DNA from: Aurantimicrobium minutum
GTDB taxonomy: Bacteria > Actinomycetota > Actinomycetes > Actinomycetales > Microbacteriaceae
Assembly: GCF_029893825.1 (NCBI RefSeq)
Contig: NZ_JARXXV010000001.1
Span: 930,001-994,000, forward strand
Length of the DNA stretch: 64,000 bases
Direction: 5' to 3'
A program made the translations under genes and the position numbers. Positions 1,865-42,945 of this stretch are shown piece by piece (position 1 is the first letter of the stretch; every line of letters begins with the position of its first letter). The notes under the pieces are model-generated. The model did not search any database and was not told the origin of the DNA. It worked only from the letters and a program-made list of their open reading frames with translations.

Positions 1865-3541
1865 CTACTCCAAAAATTTGTTGAGGCGCTCTGCAATAAG
1901 TTTCCTTCTCTTTTGCTTGAAAGCTTCAAAGACATCACCAGCAGTTAATCCATCTTCAAAGTCAATGAGTTGGACATTCAAGAGATGGGGCTCAAAGTCA
2001 TTCTTGTAGTCATCAGGACTTCTGTCAGTGATCTTCTTATTTGTTGCAGCTCCTATGAAAGCAAGATTGGCAATATCGTCAACATCTCGTGAGTCAACAT
2101 CCGGGCGAACGCGCTTGAGGAAGGCTTTGGGGAAGATGTGGTGGAATTCAATCTTGTCTGAGGCACCACCATGCTTAGTAGAGAGTTCTAAGTTAGTAGC
2201 CCAGTCACGAGCACCGTCTTGACGTAAAGCCAAGAAAAGTGTTTTGAAAGCGCCAGAACGCGAATTCCTACCGATGAGGTCCTCGGGAGTGAAATCAAGT
2301 CGACCCATTTGTTGAATGAGTCTCTGGTAGAGACCATCCACCGAACCGCCGTTTCTCAACGCTGCGATGTCCTGGTCCAATAGTCCTTCCGATGAGCCTC
2401 GCGAATAACGACCCTTTGCATTTGCAGAGAGGAACCAGCGCCTAAATTCCTCTGCCTCGGTTGAATCGATTTTGTAATCGCGAGAATCAACCCAGAACGC
2501 AGTTGTCACCAACAGAAAAGGTGACGATAAAAGGGTAAGGCTGTCGATTCCAATGTTGCTCTGAACAAAATTAAGCGCAAAATCAAGTGCCTTTTTCGTT
2601 CGTTTCCAACCATCTTCAAGTTGCTTGGTTGATAAACCTGAAACGACAAAGAACTTGGATTGTCCCGTTACCAGAGCAACCAAAGTTTTGAGGTAGGTTC
2701 CCATTTCAATGACAAACCCCCGGCGGTCTACCTCCGATTGGTAGTCCTGGAAAATTTGGAGTGAGCCTCTCCACTTTGCGGTGATCTGTGCCAAAGCCAG
2801 ATCAGAGCTTCTGAGCTTTGCTCCAAGCGAATTCACTCGAACAAAGATTTCTGTTACTTCTTCGTAAGACTTGCTCTTTTCGAGGACGTCCATCCTGTAC
2901 GAATAATCCGCGATTGCACGCACACCTTTCAACCGCTCTGTGTATTTTTCGTAATTTGGATCGTCAAAGCTAGTCACCCCGGCACCGCGGAGTAATTCAC
3001 CATCTGATTTGGTAAACACGTCAGTGACTCTTACCCAGTTCGGCAAGGAAGCGATTCGTCCATTTGAAACTACAAATGCACGCCGCGACAATCGTTCGAT
3101 GAAGTCCTTTTCTGAAGCATCTTCGATGTCTGGATCTTCATCGTCTTTACTTGACTCATTCACTTCAGTAATGAAAGTCAGTTCATCAGGATGTTCAAGG
3201 TTGAACAAGATCTCCACAGGTCGTTTTCGTCCACGAACTGTAACAGGTTCTCCACGAATTACTGCGGACAATGAGGTCAGTCGTTGCTGACCATCAAGTA
3301 ACAACAACTTCGATGAAGAGGATGCGGCTGAAGTCTCCACAGCAAAATCGGTTGTGGCCACATTTTCATCTGTTTCCCAAGCGAGAATAACACCAGAGGG
3401 GTAGCCACGGTAGAGAGAGTCCAATAGATCTCGCACACGAGTTGCTTGCCAGACATACTCACGTTGCATTTCAGGAAGTTGCAGATCCTTGTTCTGAATC
3501 ATGCGAACTAAATCGCTGACTGTGCGGTCTGTCCTAGCCAC
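1865..3541 (-). CDS. DUF262/DUF1524 protein, GmrSD/BrxU-like nuclease candidate
   Basis: 558-aa protein with a ParB-like DUF262 N-terminal domain, shown by LQLPEMQREYVW near residue 20 and DGQQRLTSL near 81. A DUF1524 HNH-type nuclease motif, HHIFPKAFL, sits near 465. Single-chain proteins of this build include GmrSD homologues and BrxU, nucleotide-dependent type IV enzymes that cut modified phage DNA. The GTG start at 3541 follows AAGGGGG. It lies between tRNA-Arg and hsdM on the same strand, 105 nt before hsdM, so it is probably part of the same defence block. A role against modified DNA is inferred from family and context; the substrate is unknown. Confidence 0.85.
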   Translation of the reverse strand: MARTDRTVSDLVRMIQNKDLQLPEMQREYVWQATRVRDLLDSLYRGYPSGVILAWETDENVATTDFAVETSAASSSSKLLLLDGQQRLTSLSAVIRGEPVTVRGRKRPVEILFNLEHPDELTFITEVNESSKDDEDPDIEDASEKDFIERLSRRAFVVSNGRIASLPNWVRVTDVFTKSDGELLRGAGVTSFDDPNYEKYTERLKGVRAIADYSYRMDVLEKSKSYEEVTEIFVRVNSLGAKLRSSDLALAQITAKWRGSLQIFQDYQSEVDRRGFVIEMGTYLKTLVALVTGQSKFFVVSGLSTKQLEDGWKRTKKALDFALNFVQSNIGIDSLTLLSSPFLLVTTAFWVDSRDYKIDSTEAEEFRRWFLSANAKGRYSRGSSEGLLDQDIAALRNGGSVDGLYQRLIQQMGRLDFTPEDLIGRNSRSGAFKTLFLALRQDGARDWATNLELSTKHGGASDKIEFHHIFPKAFLKRVRPDVDSRDVDDIANLAFIGAATNKKITDRSPDDYKNDFEPHLLNVQLIDFEDGLTAGDVFEAFKQKRRKLIAERLNKFLE

Positions 3542-3572
3542 AAGGCCCCCTTGATTACTAACAAATTTAAAG

Positions 3573-3644
3573 TGCCCCTGAAGAGACTCGAACTCCCAAC
3601 CAACTCCTTAGGACGGAGGTGCTCTTCCATTGAGCTACAGAGGC
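3573..3644 (-). tRNA. tRNA-Arg(CCT)
   Basis: The minus strand folds as a cloverleaf. The acceptor is GCCTCTG with CAGGGGC and discriminator A, the D arm starts GCTC, the anticodon loop GTCCTAA has anticodon CCT, and the T arm contains GTTCGAG. CCA is not encoded. One pair of the anticodon stem (27-43) is mismatched. The 3' end faces the restriction block at 1-3541, the orientation expected when an element has integrated at a tRNA 3' end. Confidence 0.95.
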
Positions 3645-4437: not shown

Positions 4438-5226
4438 TTAGCCGACGCGAACGAAGAGTGCGTAGCTGTGAGGATCTGCAGAGATGGAGGTGAGAACAGA
4501 AGTTCCACCAATACCACCTTGAGCTGCAAGACCGTTACCTGCGTAGATAGCGACGTGGTTGCCGCGCATCATGATGTCGCCAGGCTGAACCTGGTCAGGG
4601 TCACTGAATACCGTTCCGTAGCCACCGAACTGCATGGGGCCAAGGTCAGGAACCGAGTACCCGATATTACGCAGTGCCTGCTCAACGAAAGCGGTGCAGT
4701 CACCAGGCATACCGATCAAGTTCAGTGCTGCATTCAGCAGTGCTGAGTTTGAACGGATACCCGATACATCGACAGATACTCGAGAAGAGGAAGAAGCACG
4801 TGCTGCTGAAGCAACGGTGACCGCAGCTGCAGTTGAGTACCCGTCACGACTTGCAGAAACAGCAGCGTCACCGGAGACAACAAGAGCCTGCGCTTCAGCA
4901 GCAAGCTGAGCCTTGTATGCCTCAACATCAACGTGGTCGCTGGAGTCGATTGCATAAGCAGGAATCGAGAAGGTTGCCAGCACACCAAAAGCAACAGCCA
5001 TCACACCGGCACGTGCCCAGTTGCGGCTGTTGTTTGCGTTGCGCGCAGCACGAGCGGTGCGCTTGACGGGTTGTGCGGTTGCTACCTCTTGGGCAGCAGA
5101 AACTAGAGCAGTACCGCGCTCACGTGCAGTGGATGCGAAAGAGCGTGCGGACTTGCGAAGTGTTTTCTTTTCCGCGAGCTTGCGCTCACGGCGTGACGAA
5201 AATTCGTCGTTACCTAATTCGGCCAA
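4438..5226 (-). CDS. NlpC/P60 or CHAP-type cell-wall hydrolase
   Basis: 262-aa exported peptidoglycan hydrolase candidate. A basic N-terminus (SSRRERKLAEKK) leads to one membrane segment near residues 82-105 ending in IPAYA, then a linker rich in Ala/Ser. The C-terminal cysteine peptidase domain has GDCTAFV (catalytic Cys about 175) and GNHVAIYAGN (His about 222). I place the start at a TTG at 5226, because GGAGG lies exactly 7 nt upstream. A reading frame back to 5343 would run through a strongly folded leader and is less likely. The leader (5227-5360) probably controls expression. Confidence 0.85.
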   Translation of the reverse strand: MAELGNDEFSSRRERKLAEKKTLRKSARSFASTARERGTALVSAAQEVATAQPVKRTARAARNANNSRNWARAGVMAVAFGVLATFSIPAYAIDSSDHVDVEAYKAQLAAEAQALVVSGDAAVSASRDGYSTAAAVTVASAARASSSSRVSVDVSGIRSNSALLNAALNLIGMPGDCTAFVEQALRNIGYSVPDLGPMQFGGYGTVFSDPDQVQPGDIMMRGNHVAIYAGNGLAAQGGIGGTSVLTSISADPHSYALFVRVG

Positions 5227-5360
5227 GGTATAACCTCCGGCGCCCCAACAAGCTAGGTTGCTTACCCCGTCACGATGCGAAATTCGCTTCGTTTCACATA
5301 TCGAGAGACGGGGGTTGGGACGTCTCGCTATGTGGCTTTTCAACCGTTTGGTGGTTGTAA
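5227..5360 (-). promoter_or_regulatory. Structured 5' leader, candidate riboswitch
   Basis: In the sense of the NlpC gene the leader can form a three-way junction. P1 pairs CGUCCCAAC (5322-5314) with GUUGGGGCG (5249-5241), P2 pairs CCCCGUC (5313-5307) with GACGGGG (5271-5265), and P3 is AAGC/GCUU (5263-5250). A rival hairpin pairs 5295-5310 with 5321-5334 and uses part of P2. The 3' strand of P1 ends just before the GGAGG ribosome site. A further hairpin lies at 5341-5357. Wall hydrolase genes in Actinobacteria are often under c-di-AMP (ydaO) riboswitches, but I do not see that motif's consensus here, so the ligand is open. Confidence 0.5.
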
Positions 5361-5363
5361 AGC

Positions 5364-5393
5364 TTAACCAGACTACGCGAAGAGAGCCAAAAA
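5364..5393 (-). promoter_or_regulatory. Putative promoter of the NlpC gene
   Basis: On the minus strand TTGGCT and TAAGCT are separated by 18 nt, just upstream of the structured leader. Matches to the sigma-70-type consensus are moderate. It would start the transcript near 5358 and give a leader of about 130 nt. Confidence 0.35.
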
Positions 5394-5441
5394 GTCACAT
5401 TAGCGACACGACAAAATCACAAAAAGATAACGGGTGATTTA

Positions 5442-6140
5442 CTACAAGCTGTGCTCAACGAAGATGTGAACCGCTACATCTAGTGGTAAATCAAGAGAAC
5501 CTGAGAATCCAGTGGCAGAAACGCTGACCCGGTCACCATCTCGCTTGAAGGAAATTTCAGCACCGGGTTTGAGGCCCACTTCAGCAAAGTCGGCAAGAGT
5601 TTCAGGATCGATTTGCGCCGGCTCCCCCAGGCGTCGCACGATGCCCGTGCTGAGTTCACCAGATGCCTGGAGTAGATCTAACAGGTTGGCCACGCCATCC
5701 ATAAATCCTTCGGCAGGTTCAATACCGAGCTCTTCTAGACCTGGGATGGGGTTGCCATAGGGAGATTCGGTGGGGTTACCCAGCATCTCCATAATGCGAC
5801 GCTCCACCTTGTCGCTCATCACGTGTTCCCAGCGGCAGGCTTCATCATGAACGAACTCCCACTCCAGGCCAATGATGTCGCTGAGCAAACGCTCGGCTAA
5901 ACGGTGCTTACGCATGACATGAACTGCCTTCGAGCGCCCCTCTGCGGTGAGCTCAAGATGCCGGTCATCCGAAACCAAGACAAGTCCGTCACGTTCCATA
6001 CGTGCCACGGTCTGAGACACTGTGGGACCGGAGTGACCTACCCGCTCTGAGATGCGCGCACGCAGAGGAACAATGTTCTCCTCCTCCAGCTCGAGGATGG
6101 TGCGCAGATACATCTCAGTGGTGTCGATCAGATCCGTCAT
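5442..6140 (-). CDS. DtxR/IdeR/MntR-family metal-dependent regulator
   Basis: 232-aa regulator of the DtxR family. The N-terminal winged helix starts with the family hallmark DLIDTTEMYLRTI and GHSGPTVSQTVARMERDGL. A metal-binding dimerisation domain follows with HRLAERLL, DEACRWEHVMS and the ESPYGNPIPG signature. A C-terminal SH3-like (FeoA) domain covers about 150-232. Iron- or manganese-loaded members repress uptake genes and adjust storage genes. The start is set at ATG 6140, with TAAAGT 7 nt upstream suggesting a leaderless mRNA; a GTG six bases further up is the alternative. DtxR-like boxes occur in this window at 18151, 36122 and 59342. Whether it senses Fe or Mn cannot be told. Confidence 0.9.
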   Translation of the reverse strand: MTDLIDTTEMYLRTILELEEENIVPLRARISERVGHSGPTVSQTVARMERDGLVLVSDDRHLELTAEGRSKAVHVMRKHRLAERLLSDIIGLEWEFVHDEACRWEHVMSDKVERRIMEMLGNPTESPYGNPIPGLEELGIEPAEGFMDGVANLLDLLQASGELSTGIVRRLGEPAQIDPETLADFAEVGLKPGAEISFKRDGDRVSVSATGFSGSLDLPLDVAVHIFVEHSL

Positions 6141-6214
6141 GCTCACTACTTTACCCGGGGCAGTTGCCCAGATTCTGTGCGGAAATTTCGCTGGGCGCCA
6201 AACCCTAGAATTGA

Positions 6215-7945
<1,731 letters not shown>

Positions 7946-40631: not shown

Positions 40632-41505
40632 CAGCTAACTCCGCTGCCTTGACCACGTTGGCCAGCAGCATTGCCCGGGTCATCGGACCAACCCCACCAG
40701 GATTCGGGGAGAAGTGCCCAGCAACTTCAGCAACTGCCGGGTCAACATCACCGGTGAGTTTTGCTTTACCGGTCTCTGCATTCTCAACACGAGTAATACC
40801 CACATCCAAAACTGCAGCGCCAGGCTTCACCCAGTCAGGTTTGATGAAGTGGGGAACACCCACAGCAGCAACGACAACATCAGCACGACGAATATCGTCC
40901 TCAATGTTGACGGTGCGAGAGTGGGTCAATGTCACCGTGGCATCAATACCTTTACGATTGAGCAAGAGCCCTAACGGACGTCCCACGGTCAAACCACGAC
41001 CCACAACAGTCACATGCTTACCCGCAAGAGGAACGTCATAACGCTGAAGAAGTTCCACAATTCCGGCAGGGGTGCAAGGAAGTGGCGAAGCCAGTTCACC
41101 TTCAATTCCCATCACCAGACGACCCAAGTTCATCGGGTGTAGACCATCAGCATCCTTGGCAGGATCAATGAGCTCCAGTGCTGCATGCTCATCCAACCCT
41201 TTAGGCAAAGGAAGTTGGACGATATAACCGGTGACGGCAGGGTCTTCGTTGAGCTGCTGAATAGCAGCTTCAACATCGGCCTGTGTTGCTGTGGCAGGCA
41301 GATCAACTCGTATCGAGTTGATGCCTACCTCAGCACAGTCACGGTGCTTACCCGCAACATATGAACGTGAACCAGGGTCATCACCAACCAGCAACGTTCC
41401 CAAACCAGGAGTAATGCCCTGAGCTTTGAGCGTTGCAATCCGGTCAGCAAGTTCACCCTTGACGGCAGATGCAGTAGCGATGCCGTCGAGAGTGATTGCT
41501 ACCAC
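40621..41505 (-). CDS. folD: Methylenetetrahydrofolate dehydrogenase/cyclohydrolase
   Basis: 294 aa. It oxidises 5,10-methylene-THF to methenyl-THF with NADP and then hydrolyses it to 10-formyl-THF. [14 protein letters not shown] carries the catalytic Lys/Cys region, [12 protein letters not shown] the active-site strand, and [16 protein letters not shown] the NADP loop. The N-terminus overlaps glyA by 7 nt, so translation is coupled. The ZTP riboswitch before glyA should control both. Confidence 0.97.
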
Positions 41506-42779
41506 TGTTCGAGGCCTGGGTATAGGGGGAATGCGTCGGTGAGAACCTTGACACGTGCCTTGAGTGCAGAAACATCTGCACCAGGCTTGAGTGCCTCAGC
41601 AATCACGTCTGCAACCTCGGTGAACTCAGCATCGCCGAATCCACGAGTAGCCAAAGCAGGTGTTCCAATACGAAGACCAGAGGTCACCATAGGTGGACGT
41701 GGGTCGAAAGGTACCGAGTTACGGTTCACGGTGATGCCTGCTTCGTGCAGAACATCTTCTGCCTGCTGGCCATCCAGTGGAGAGTTACGTAGGTCAACCA
41801 GAACCAGGTGAACATCGGTGCCACCGGTAAGAACATCAACGCCAGCTGCCTTCATGTCTTCCTGAGTGAGGCGGTCAGCAATGATCTGAGCACCACGAAG
41901 AGTGCGCTCTTGACGGTTCTTGAACTCAGGGGTCATAGCGAGCTTGAACGCCGTAGCCTTCGCAGCGATGACGTGCATGAGTGGACCACCCTGCTGTCCA
42001 GGGAAGACGGCGGTGTTGAGCTTCTTAGCCAGTTCTTCATCACGGCTGAGGATCAAACCAGAGCGAGGACCAGCCAGGGTCTTGTGAACGGTGGTGGAAA
42101 CCACGTCAGCAAATGGCACGGGGTTGGGGTGAAGACCTGCAGCAACCAGACCAGCGAAGTGAGCCATGTCGACCCAGAGCTTGGCCCCAACTTCATCAGC
42201 GATAGCGCGGAATTCAGCGAAGTCGAGCTGGCGTGGGTAAGCAGACCAACCAGCAATAATCACCGAAGGCTTGTGCTCGTGTGCAAGCTTGCGCACAACA
42301 TCCATGTCAACGAGGAAGGTTTCAGGGTCAACACCGTAGGCAACGGGGTTGTAGACCTTGCCGGAGAAGTTGAGCTTCATACCGTGGGTGAGGTGACCAC
42401 CGTGAGCAAGCTCAAGACCAAGAATGGTGTCGCCAGGCTGTGCGATCGCGTGCAGAACTGCAGCGTTCGCGGTTGCACCCGAGTGTGGCTGAACGTTGGC
42501 GTATGCAGCACCGAAGAGCTTCTTTGCGCGCTCAATGGCGAGGCTTTCTGCCACGTCAACGAATTCGCAACCACCGTAGTAACGCTTACCGGGGTAGCCT
42601 TCTGCATACTTGTTGGTGAGGACCGAACCCTGAGATTCAAGAACAGCGCGAGGAACAAAGTTCTCAGACGCAATCATCTCGAGGAAGTCGCGCTGACGGC
42701 CCAGCTCGTCCTGAAGAACGGCAGCAATCTCGGGGTCAACCTCGGATAGCGGGGCGTTGAAGGTGTTATCTGAAGACAC
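41499..42779 (-). CDS. glyA: Serine hydroxymethyltransferase
   Basis: 426-aa PLP enzyme that turns serine and THF into glycine and methylene-THF. [42 protein letters not shown] and the PLP-lysine motif [13 protein letters not shown] are present. The start is GTG 42779, with AGGAG 8 nt upstream in a leader that carries a ZTP riboswitch. It is the first gene of the glyA-folD operon and makes the substrate for folD. Confidence 0.98.
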
Positions 42780-42827: not shown

Positions 42828-42833
42828 GTTCAT

Positions 42834-42906
42834 GGCCCAGGCGTTCGGCCAGATCCGCTCTTAAGTCGCTCCCTGATGGATACCCATCTCAACGCCAGTT
42901 GCGACT
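42834..42906 (-). promoter_or_regulatory. ZTP (pfl) riboswitch aptamer upstream of glyA
   Basis: The minus strand matches the ZTP-class core. P1 pairs AGTCGC with GCGACT. P2 is a GATGG-TATC-CATC type hairpin at 42875-42888. The conserved CAGGGAGCGACT element and the 3' hairpin GGCCGAACGCCTGGGCC complete the fold, and ACTGGCG can form the class pseudoknot with CGCCTGG. ZTP/ZMP signals low 10-formyl-THF in purine synthesis and turns on folate genes. The genes downstream, glyA and folD, are exactly such targets. Confidence 0.88.
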
Positions 42907-42945
42907 GTGTCAGTCTACCAAGCCTCGAGGCAATAATCTTGATAC

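Follow-up and report, generated by a model that had tools for sequence, protein, structure and literature searches.

In the genome of Aurantimicrobium minutum (family Microbacteriaceae), the gene for an NlpC/P60-type wall hydrolase is preceded on the minus strand by a structured leader occupying about positions 5365 to 5227 of the window, the whole 64,000-nucleotide stretch of DNA analysed here. It begins behind a sigma-70-type promoter and comprises six conserved helices, after which come the Shine-Dalgarno sequence and TTG start codon of the hydrolase gene. After a two-helix 5′ domain, the 5′ to 3′ order is hairpin A, hairpin B, the P2 3′ strand, hairpin C and the P1 3′ strand. Adjoining the leader, at 5442–7330, are what we take to be a DtxR-type regulator gene (minus strand) and serC (plus strand). 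Percentages in the feature list are paired cells in the alignments described below.

5393–5398, minus strand: −35 element GTGACT of a TGACN-N17-TANNNT pattern directly 5′ of the leader (TGACT from 5397)
5370–5375, minus strand: −10 element TAGTCT, part of the same pattern
About 5363–5365, minus strand: predicted transcription start, a few nucleotides 3′ of the −10 element
5335–5363, minus strand: 5′ domain, helix P-1 (5363–5359 with 5339–5335) closing hairpin P0 (5357–5353 with 5345–5341) in the MFE fold
5297–5332, minus strand: rival hairpin A (5332–5323 with 5306–5297), 84.8% paired, both-side changes in nine of ten pairs
5314–5322, minus strand: P1 5′ strand CGUCCCAAC, partner 5249–5241, 99.1% paired, both-side changes in five of six core pairs
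5307–5313, minus strand: P2 5′ strand CCCCGUC, partner 5271–5265, 91.0% paired, both-side changes in three of six core pairs
5273–5291, minus strand: hairpin B, variable, 93.9% paired among 11 close sequences and outside the family-wide count
5265–5271, minus strand: P2 3′ strand GACGGGG, from alignment pairing and fold
5250–5263, minus strand: hairpin C (5263–5260 with 5253–5250, loop AACCUA at 5259–5254), 85.9% paired, both-side changes in three of four pairs
5241–5249, minus strand: P1 3′ strand GUUGGGGCG, 2 nt 5′ of the Shine-Dalgarno sequence, from alignment pairing and fold
5234–5238, minus strand: Shine-Dalgarno sequence GGAGG, conserved in relatives
5224–5226, minus strand: start codon TTG, 7 nt after GGAGG
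5213–5216, minus strand: UAGG in codons 4–5, complementary to the hairpin C loop and putatively pairing with it
4438–5226, minus strand: NlpC/P60-type wall hydrolase gene (PF00877, 22.0 bits against a cut-off of 23, E 1.6e-4)

The original prediction had described a 9-bp and a 7-bp helix (now P1 and P2) closing a junction that ends at the GGAGG, with a TTG start 7 nt on, and a rival hairpin sharing bases with a junction helix. All of these are present, the helices on the minus strand, and the rival hairpin covaries. The element is longer at its 5′ end than that description allowed, with two more helices at 5363–5335 and a promoter upstream of them.

Two other parts of the window may be recorded here. 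A ZMP/ZTP riboswitch (RF01750, 54.4 bits) lies at 42828–42912 on the minus strand, directly upstream of an ORF at 41499–42779, an ordinary and known arrangement; we take this ORF to encode serine hydroxymethyltransferase and the next one FolD. A minus-strand gene at 1865–3541, presumably encoding a DUF262/GmrSD-like protein, begins about 30 bases from a tRNA (3573–3644), and 1865–3644 is possibly a small inserted island.

The leader region folds at −66.8 kcal/mol, compared with a shuffle mean of −48.97 kcal/mol (z −4.60), and none of 200 shuffles folded as well. Within eight Aurantimicrobium genomes the leader has a mean column identity of 90%, even where protein identity is only 40% (G007). 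A profile of the Aurantimicrobium leader also found it ahead of the homologous gene in three other genera; there P1, P2, hairpin A and hairpin C all show compensatory changes. For the family as a whole, 54 sequences including the window's own were aligned by sequence only and scored over 34 pairs in six helices. They were drawn from a non-redundant list of 60, which itself omits L105, L123, L124 and L126, and leave out L051, L064, L075, L088, L108 and L115, in each case for long inserts or likeness to others. In this alignment 89.2% of the cells pair, 25 of the 34 pairs show changes on both sides, and all six helices covary; helices 1 and 2 of the 5′ domain are 86.0 and 88.9% paired, with both-side changes in five of their eight pairs. 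Cells changed on both sides number 242, against a mean of 75.6 in shuffles uncorrected for kinship among the sequences and 42–78 when partners are slid by one to three columns. Part of the excess over the slid versions is built in, because the structure was taken from one member; this does not apply to the double changes. Compensatory changes in relatives, which the original prediction had asked for, are thus present in every helix, and the structured leader before an NlpC/P60-type gene is established by covariation across the Microbacteriaceae alignment.

A translated frame through the leader was the other observation sought. An in-frame TTG is present at 5343 in the window. Over the 40 codons upstream of the start, the frame of the hydrolase is uninterrupted in 41 of 126 loci, and the other two frames in 80 of 252 cases. 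As it stays open no more often than they do, the leader is not a coding extension of the hydrolase. The start codon itself is TTG in 118 of the 126 loci, GTG in seven and ATG in one (redundancy among loci not removed), and the TGACN-N17-TANNNT promoter pattern, with a spacing of 17, lies directly 5′ of the leader in 107. The loci L124 and L126, which have no suitable start or ORF, are omitted from the frame, start and promoter counts and from the UAGG count given below.

Close to the promoter, 33 of 126 loci (L039 to L193) have GTNAC-N6-GTNAC direct repeats, compared with a mean of 0.095 in shuffles; in the window itself the promoter has no more than a degenerate version. These repeats resemble the Streptomyces MtrA site, reported as GtnAcC-n5-GTnAcn (PMC13189361). 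Control of these hydrolase genes by MtrA would fit wall regulation.

A first covariance model, built from 11 sequences, matched 88 of 398 Microbacteriaceae genomes at E 0.1 or better, two of the matches (L124, L126) being held false. The second model, at E 0.01 or better, matched 154 of 299 Microbacteriaceae genomes in 51 of 85 genera; in the remaining 145 genomes, without a match, the element is missing or beyond the reach of the model. The Aurantimicrobium minutum genome has one match to the final model. Among 297 genomes sampled across the order there were 14 matches, all in Microbacteriaceae, with nine Microbacteriaceae genomes listed without a match and 263 of the unmatched genomes not itemised singly. 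A sample of 197 genomes across the class gave five Microbacteriaceae matches and one weak match in another family. Because stricter filters apply to samples of this size, some weak members may have escaped. The G733 match outside Microbacteriaceae (L194, 25.3 bits, E 0.042) is attributed to chance and lies inside an apparent coding sequence, presumably an anthranilate synthase gene. A strict pattern scan of genome contigs returned 17 stretches, all titled Aurantimicrobium, Cryobacterium, Leifsonia, Diaminobutyricibacter, Microterricola or Microbacteriaceae. By these searches the element appears so far to be confined to the Microbacteriaceae.

No family of Rfam 15 matched the leader or its relatives in scans of the window and 20 of the 88 first-search loci. 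We take it that Rfam includes the NLPC-P60, lysM-Actino, M23 and similar candidate motifs, which from their names are presumably motifs before wall-related genes. Nothing on this RNA was found in the titles and abstract openings among the literature matches listed, mostly from outside subscription journals, and nothing within the same scope on loss of c-di-AMP in Microbacteriaceae. A passage of the Pontimonas genome paper mentions riboswitches without naming them.

In each of 40 further loci an ORF stands at the right place after the element, and in 39 it encodes a wall hydrolase. By domain these are 34 NLPC_P60, four Peptidase_M23 and one CHAP; the Peptidase_M23 match of L155, an incomplete sequence, is below the Pfam cut-off, and L156, also incomplete, has no domain match but a start that resembles that of L155. 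Ten proteins of the first search could be compared with the domain model, the other 1-kb pieces ending inside the gene; eight exceed the NLPC_P60 cut-off, the window's own is just under it and that of L047 has no match. The CHAP-domain protein of L185, with a GTG start, follows a weaker element match (46.9 bits). The targets of the leader would be NlpC/P60 hydrolases and, at some loci, M23 or CHAP proteins.

Second copies of the element are found in three genomes (L154, L155 and L156 in G062, G065 and G136), before M23 peptidase genes, although L156 is incomplete and unmatched. Three further genomes (G081, G219, G301) have two element matches each.

In all 61 loci with enough sequence, some genomes being counted twice, a dtxR homologue lies on the same strand, 70–251 bases upstream of the leader. 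The arrangement serC-dtxR-leader-hydrolase-HNH is largely one and the same throughout, and since most copies sit at this one orthologous locus, gene context is of little help in naming a ligand.

Hairpin A and the P1/P2 junction share bases. The 16-nt loop of hairpin A consists, in the window, of exactly the P1 and P2 5′ strands with no linkers. Left unconstrained, the window's leader folds into P1/P2 at −65.9 kcal/mol, as against −61.4 kcal/mol when A is imposed. Before the 3′ strand of P2 has been made, the predicted fold is a type-A hairpin whose inner part pairs in a shifted register. Among the 54 sequences, P1/P2 has the lower ensemble energy in 59%; the median difference is −2.1 kcal/mol in its favour, and the two ensembles lie within 6 kcal/mol of each other in 37 of 54. 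Because A and P1/P2 are so close in computed energy, a bound ligand could decide between them.

The direction of control can be addressed from two sides, which do not agree. Opening the region from the Shine-Dalgarno sequence to the start codon is computed to cost a mean of 8.1 kcal/mol with A and 6.9 kcal/mol with P1/P2, A being the higher in 37 of 54 sequences; these energies speak mildly against P1/P2 as the OFF state. The loop of hairpin C, on the other hand, reads (U)ACCUA(G) in many members, and UAGG occurs in the first codons of 16 of 21 loci with ACCUA in that loop and 2 of 61 without it, a count uncorrected for kinship, made on 82 loci thinned for likeness, with fixed windows that put the start of L054 and the Shine-Dalgarno sequences of L119 and L163 in the wrong place (rows kept). 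The association fails in five of the 21 ACCUA loci, and contrasts within genera are mixed: the two sites are coupled in g71 and g37 and partly in g93, g58 and g53, and uncoupled in L078, L122, L074, L125 and L060. The UAGG stands at the same place, codons 4–5, in 16 of 18 loci that have it. The codon holding its UA is TTA in 11, GTA in four and ATA in three, and the fact that different residues are coded suggests a constraint on the bases. As loop C could in many species reach the UAGG in codons 4–5 and clamp the start region, we lean slightly towards P1/P2 as the OFF state and A as the ON state. A local hairpin pairing the Shine-Dalgarno sequence with bases before the start codon, which single folds had suggested, was rejected; over 78 segments, 149 of 200 permutations of the 3′ parts gave a mean energy at least as low.

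The reading that we consider probable, with some reserve, is that of a new Microbacteriaceae-specific cis-regulatory leader RNA, two-state and riboswitch-like, which would control the translation of a peptidoglycan hydrolase. Transcription is predicted to start just 5′ of the 5′ domain, and the nascent RNA would form this domain and the type-A hairpin first. The emerging 3′ strands of P2 and P1 could then take over the loop of A, so that the P1/P2/C junction forms, with its end at the Shine-Dalgarno sequence. A bound ligand, or less likely a protein, would decide between the folds and so change access to the ribosome-binding site, and in the P1/P2 state the contact between loop C and the UAGG may clamp the start region. 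Regulation of wall hydrolase translation is the likely part of this model, and sensing of a small molecule a plausible one. With two-state translational riboswitches the leader shares aptamer size, competing helices and a junction beside the Shine-Dalgarno sequence. That resemblance, noticed in the original prediction, has held up, with two competing predicted folds just 5′ of the ribosome-binding site; the signal proposed there has not.

It is also conceivable, though we think it rather unlikely, that no small molecule is involved and that one of the folds is stabilised by a protein that binds the RNA, which might be a regulator of wall stress or one acting in feedback. High conservation of both stems and loops over about 130 nt, mostly at one orthologous locus and without a metabolic gene context, would suit such a leader, for which no partner protein is known, whereas sister families often have a riboswitch for a small molecule at this position.

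Less probable again is a structured leader without sensing, which would set a translation rate or the stability of the mRNA, the alternative fold being part of a static pseudoknot. Hairpin A and P2 alone would make an ordinary H-type pseudoknot, so that a static pseudoknotted fold is possible, and the computed energies favour either fold only mildly. Against this, the window's A loop is made up of exactly the P1 and P2 strands, and both sets of partners covary; with no linkers in that loop, full coexistence of A with P1/P2 looks sterically impossible in the model.

The original prediction had seen c-di-AMP as a possible signal, and the leader as either a divergent ydaO element or a new class. 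The two RNAs do have much in common. Like the new element, ydaO/yuaA (kimA, RF00379) precedes NlpC/P60 and M23 genes: ten proteins scanned after ydaO in other families comprise eight NlpC/P60 and two M23 proteins, from 12 loci with an ORF (L150 and L152 left out). It also lies near the start codon, and in Corynebacterium glutamicum a ydaO element before nlpC is reported to be probably translational (PMC9960051); the same paper states that almost all actinobacterial genes with ydaO are wall related. The position is often shared as well, a DtxR-type homologue being found 104–348 bases upstream on the same strand in 18 of 32 sister-family ydaO loci (12 best matches and 20 hand-picked, one copy each); of the others, 13 have no dtxR homologue in the sequence covered and one has it at 1,420 bases. 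The dtxR/serC neighbourhood of the window is thus common to many ydaO loci of sister families, and the linkage of both RNAs to dtxR indicates that the new element in Microbacteriaceae often stands where those families have ydaO.

The RNAs themselves do not match. RF00379 (cut-off 38 bits) has no match in the Aurantimicrobium minutum genome, none when the window and 20 relatives were scanned permissively, and none above its cut-off in 199 Microbacteriaceae genomes, where the one weak match (L141 in G102, 25.4 bits) is not accompanied by a match to the second model, R2. Conversely, the model of the new element does not match any of 12 ydaO loci. When 20 ydaO sequences were compared with 25 of the 54 elements, the mean similarity score was 89.9, compared with 89.9 and 90.9 for shuffles; similarity at the shuffled level lends no support to a common origin by sequence. 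In the order sample, RF00379 was above its cut-off in 71 of 119 genomes, none of them Microbacteriaceae (eight Microbacteriaceae listed without a match). The helix plan also differs, and so do the hosts. The diadenylate cyclase domain (PF02457) was absent from all 60 Microbacteriaceae genomes searched, from 59 genera and including that of the window, while 11 of 14 controls had it; 32 of these 60 genomes carry the element. Across the order sample the domain was found in none of seven Microbacteriaceae and in 63 of 92 others. Outside the family ydaO accompanies it, being present in 59 of 63 genomes with the cyclase and in one of 29 without it (rows compared by hand). The exceptions are G426, which has ydaO without a DAC match and is 88% complete, and G036, G415, G431 and G446, which have DAC without ydaO.

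A divergent ydaO sensing c-di-AMP, for all that its downstream gene families and dtxR-linked locus are the same, is therefore strongly disfavoured, and a new class is the better of the two earlier alternatives. Since the Microbacteriaceae genomes searched lack a c-di-AMP synthase, the element probably senses something else. As judged from gene content, c-di-AMP is a poor candidate signal, although another type of cyclase or imported c-di-AMP would be conceivable. Nor would c-di-GMP serve as a universal ligand. GGDEF (PF00990) is missing in 41 of 90 Microbacteriaceae genomes; among 47 element-bearing genomes it is present in 31 and absent from 16, Aurantimicrobium minutum included, and this argues against c-di-GMP as the common signal.

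Chance folding, or conservation at the DNA level as a promoter or operator with no RNA function, is refuted by covariation, in spite of the promoter directly upstream and the MtrA-like repeat at 33 of 126 loci, because each of the helices, which lie in the transcribed part beyond the promoter, carries compensatory changes and the motif ends at the Shine-Dalgarno sequence.

A putative two-state leader whose signal is probably not c-di-AMP stands where sister families often have ydaO, in a lineage in which no c-di-AMP synthase is recognisable, and this makes it more interesting than first described. We tentatively suggest that an unrelated riboswitch class that responds to another signal, such as a precursor or turnover product of the wall, may have replaced ydaO before the same wall hydrolase once the ancestor of the Microbacteriaceae had lost c-di-AMP synthesis. 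If so, one RNA sensor would have been swapped for another at an orthologous locus. The leader would be a new structured RNA family whose area of function, peptidoglycan hydrolysis, is clear. Its history would be unusual, in hosts without the known synthase domain and at a place where sister lineages often use c-di-AMP on the same kind of gene, and it raises the questions of what replaces c-di-AMP in control of the wall and how RNA sensors are exchanged. A wall metabolite, should one prove to be the ligand, might be new among riboswitch ligands, and the leader might then serve to report on wall status.
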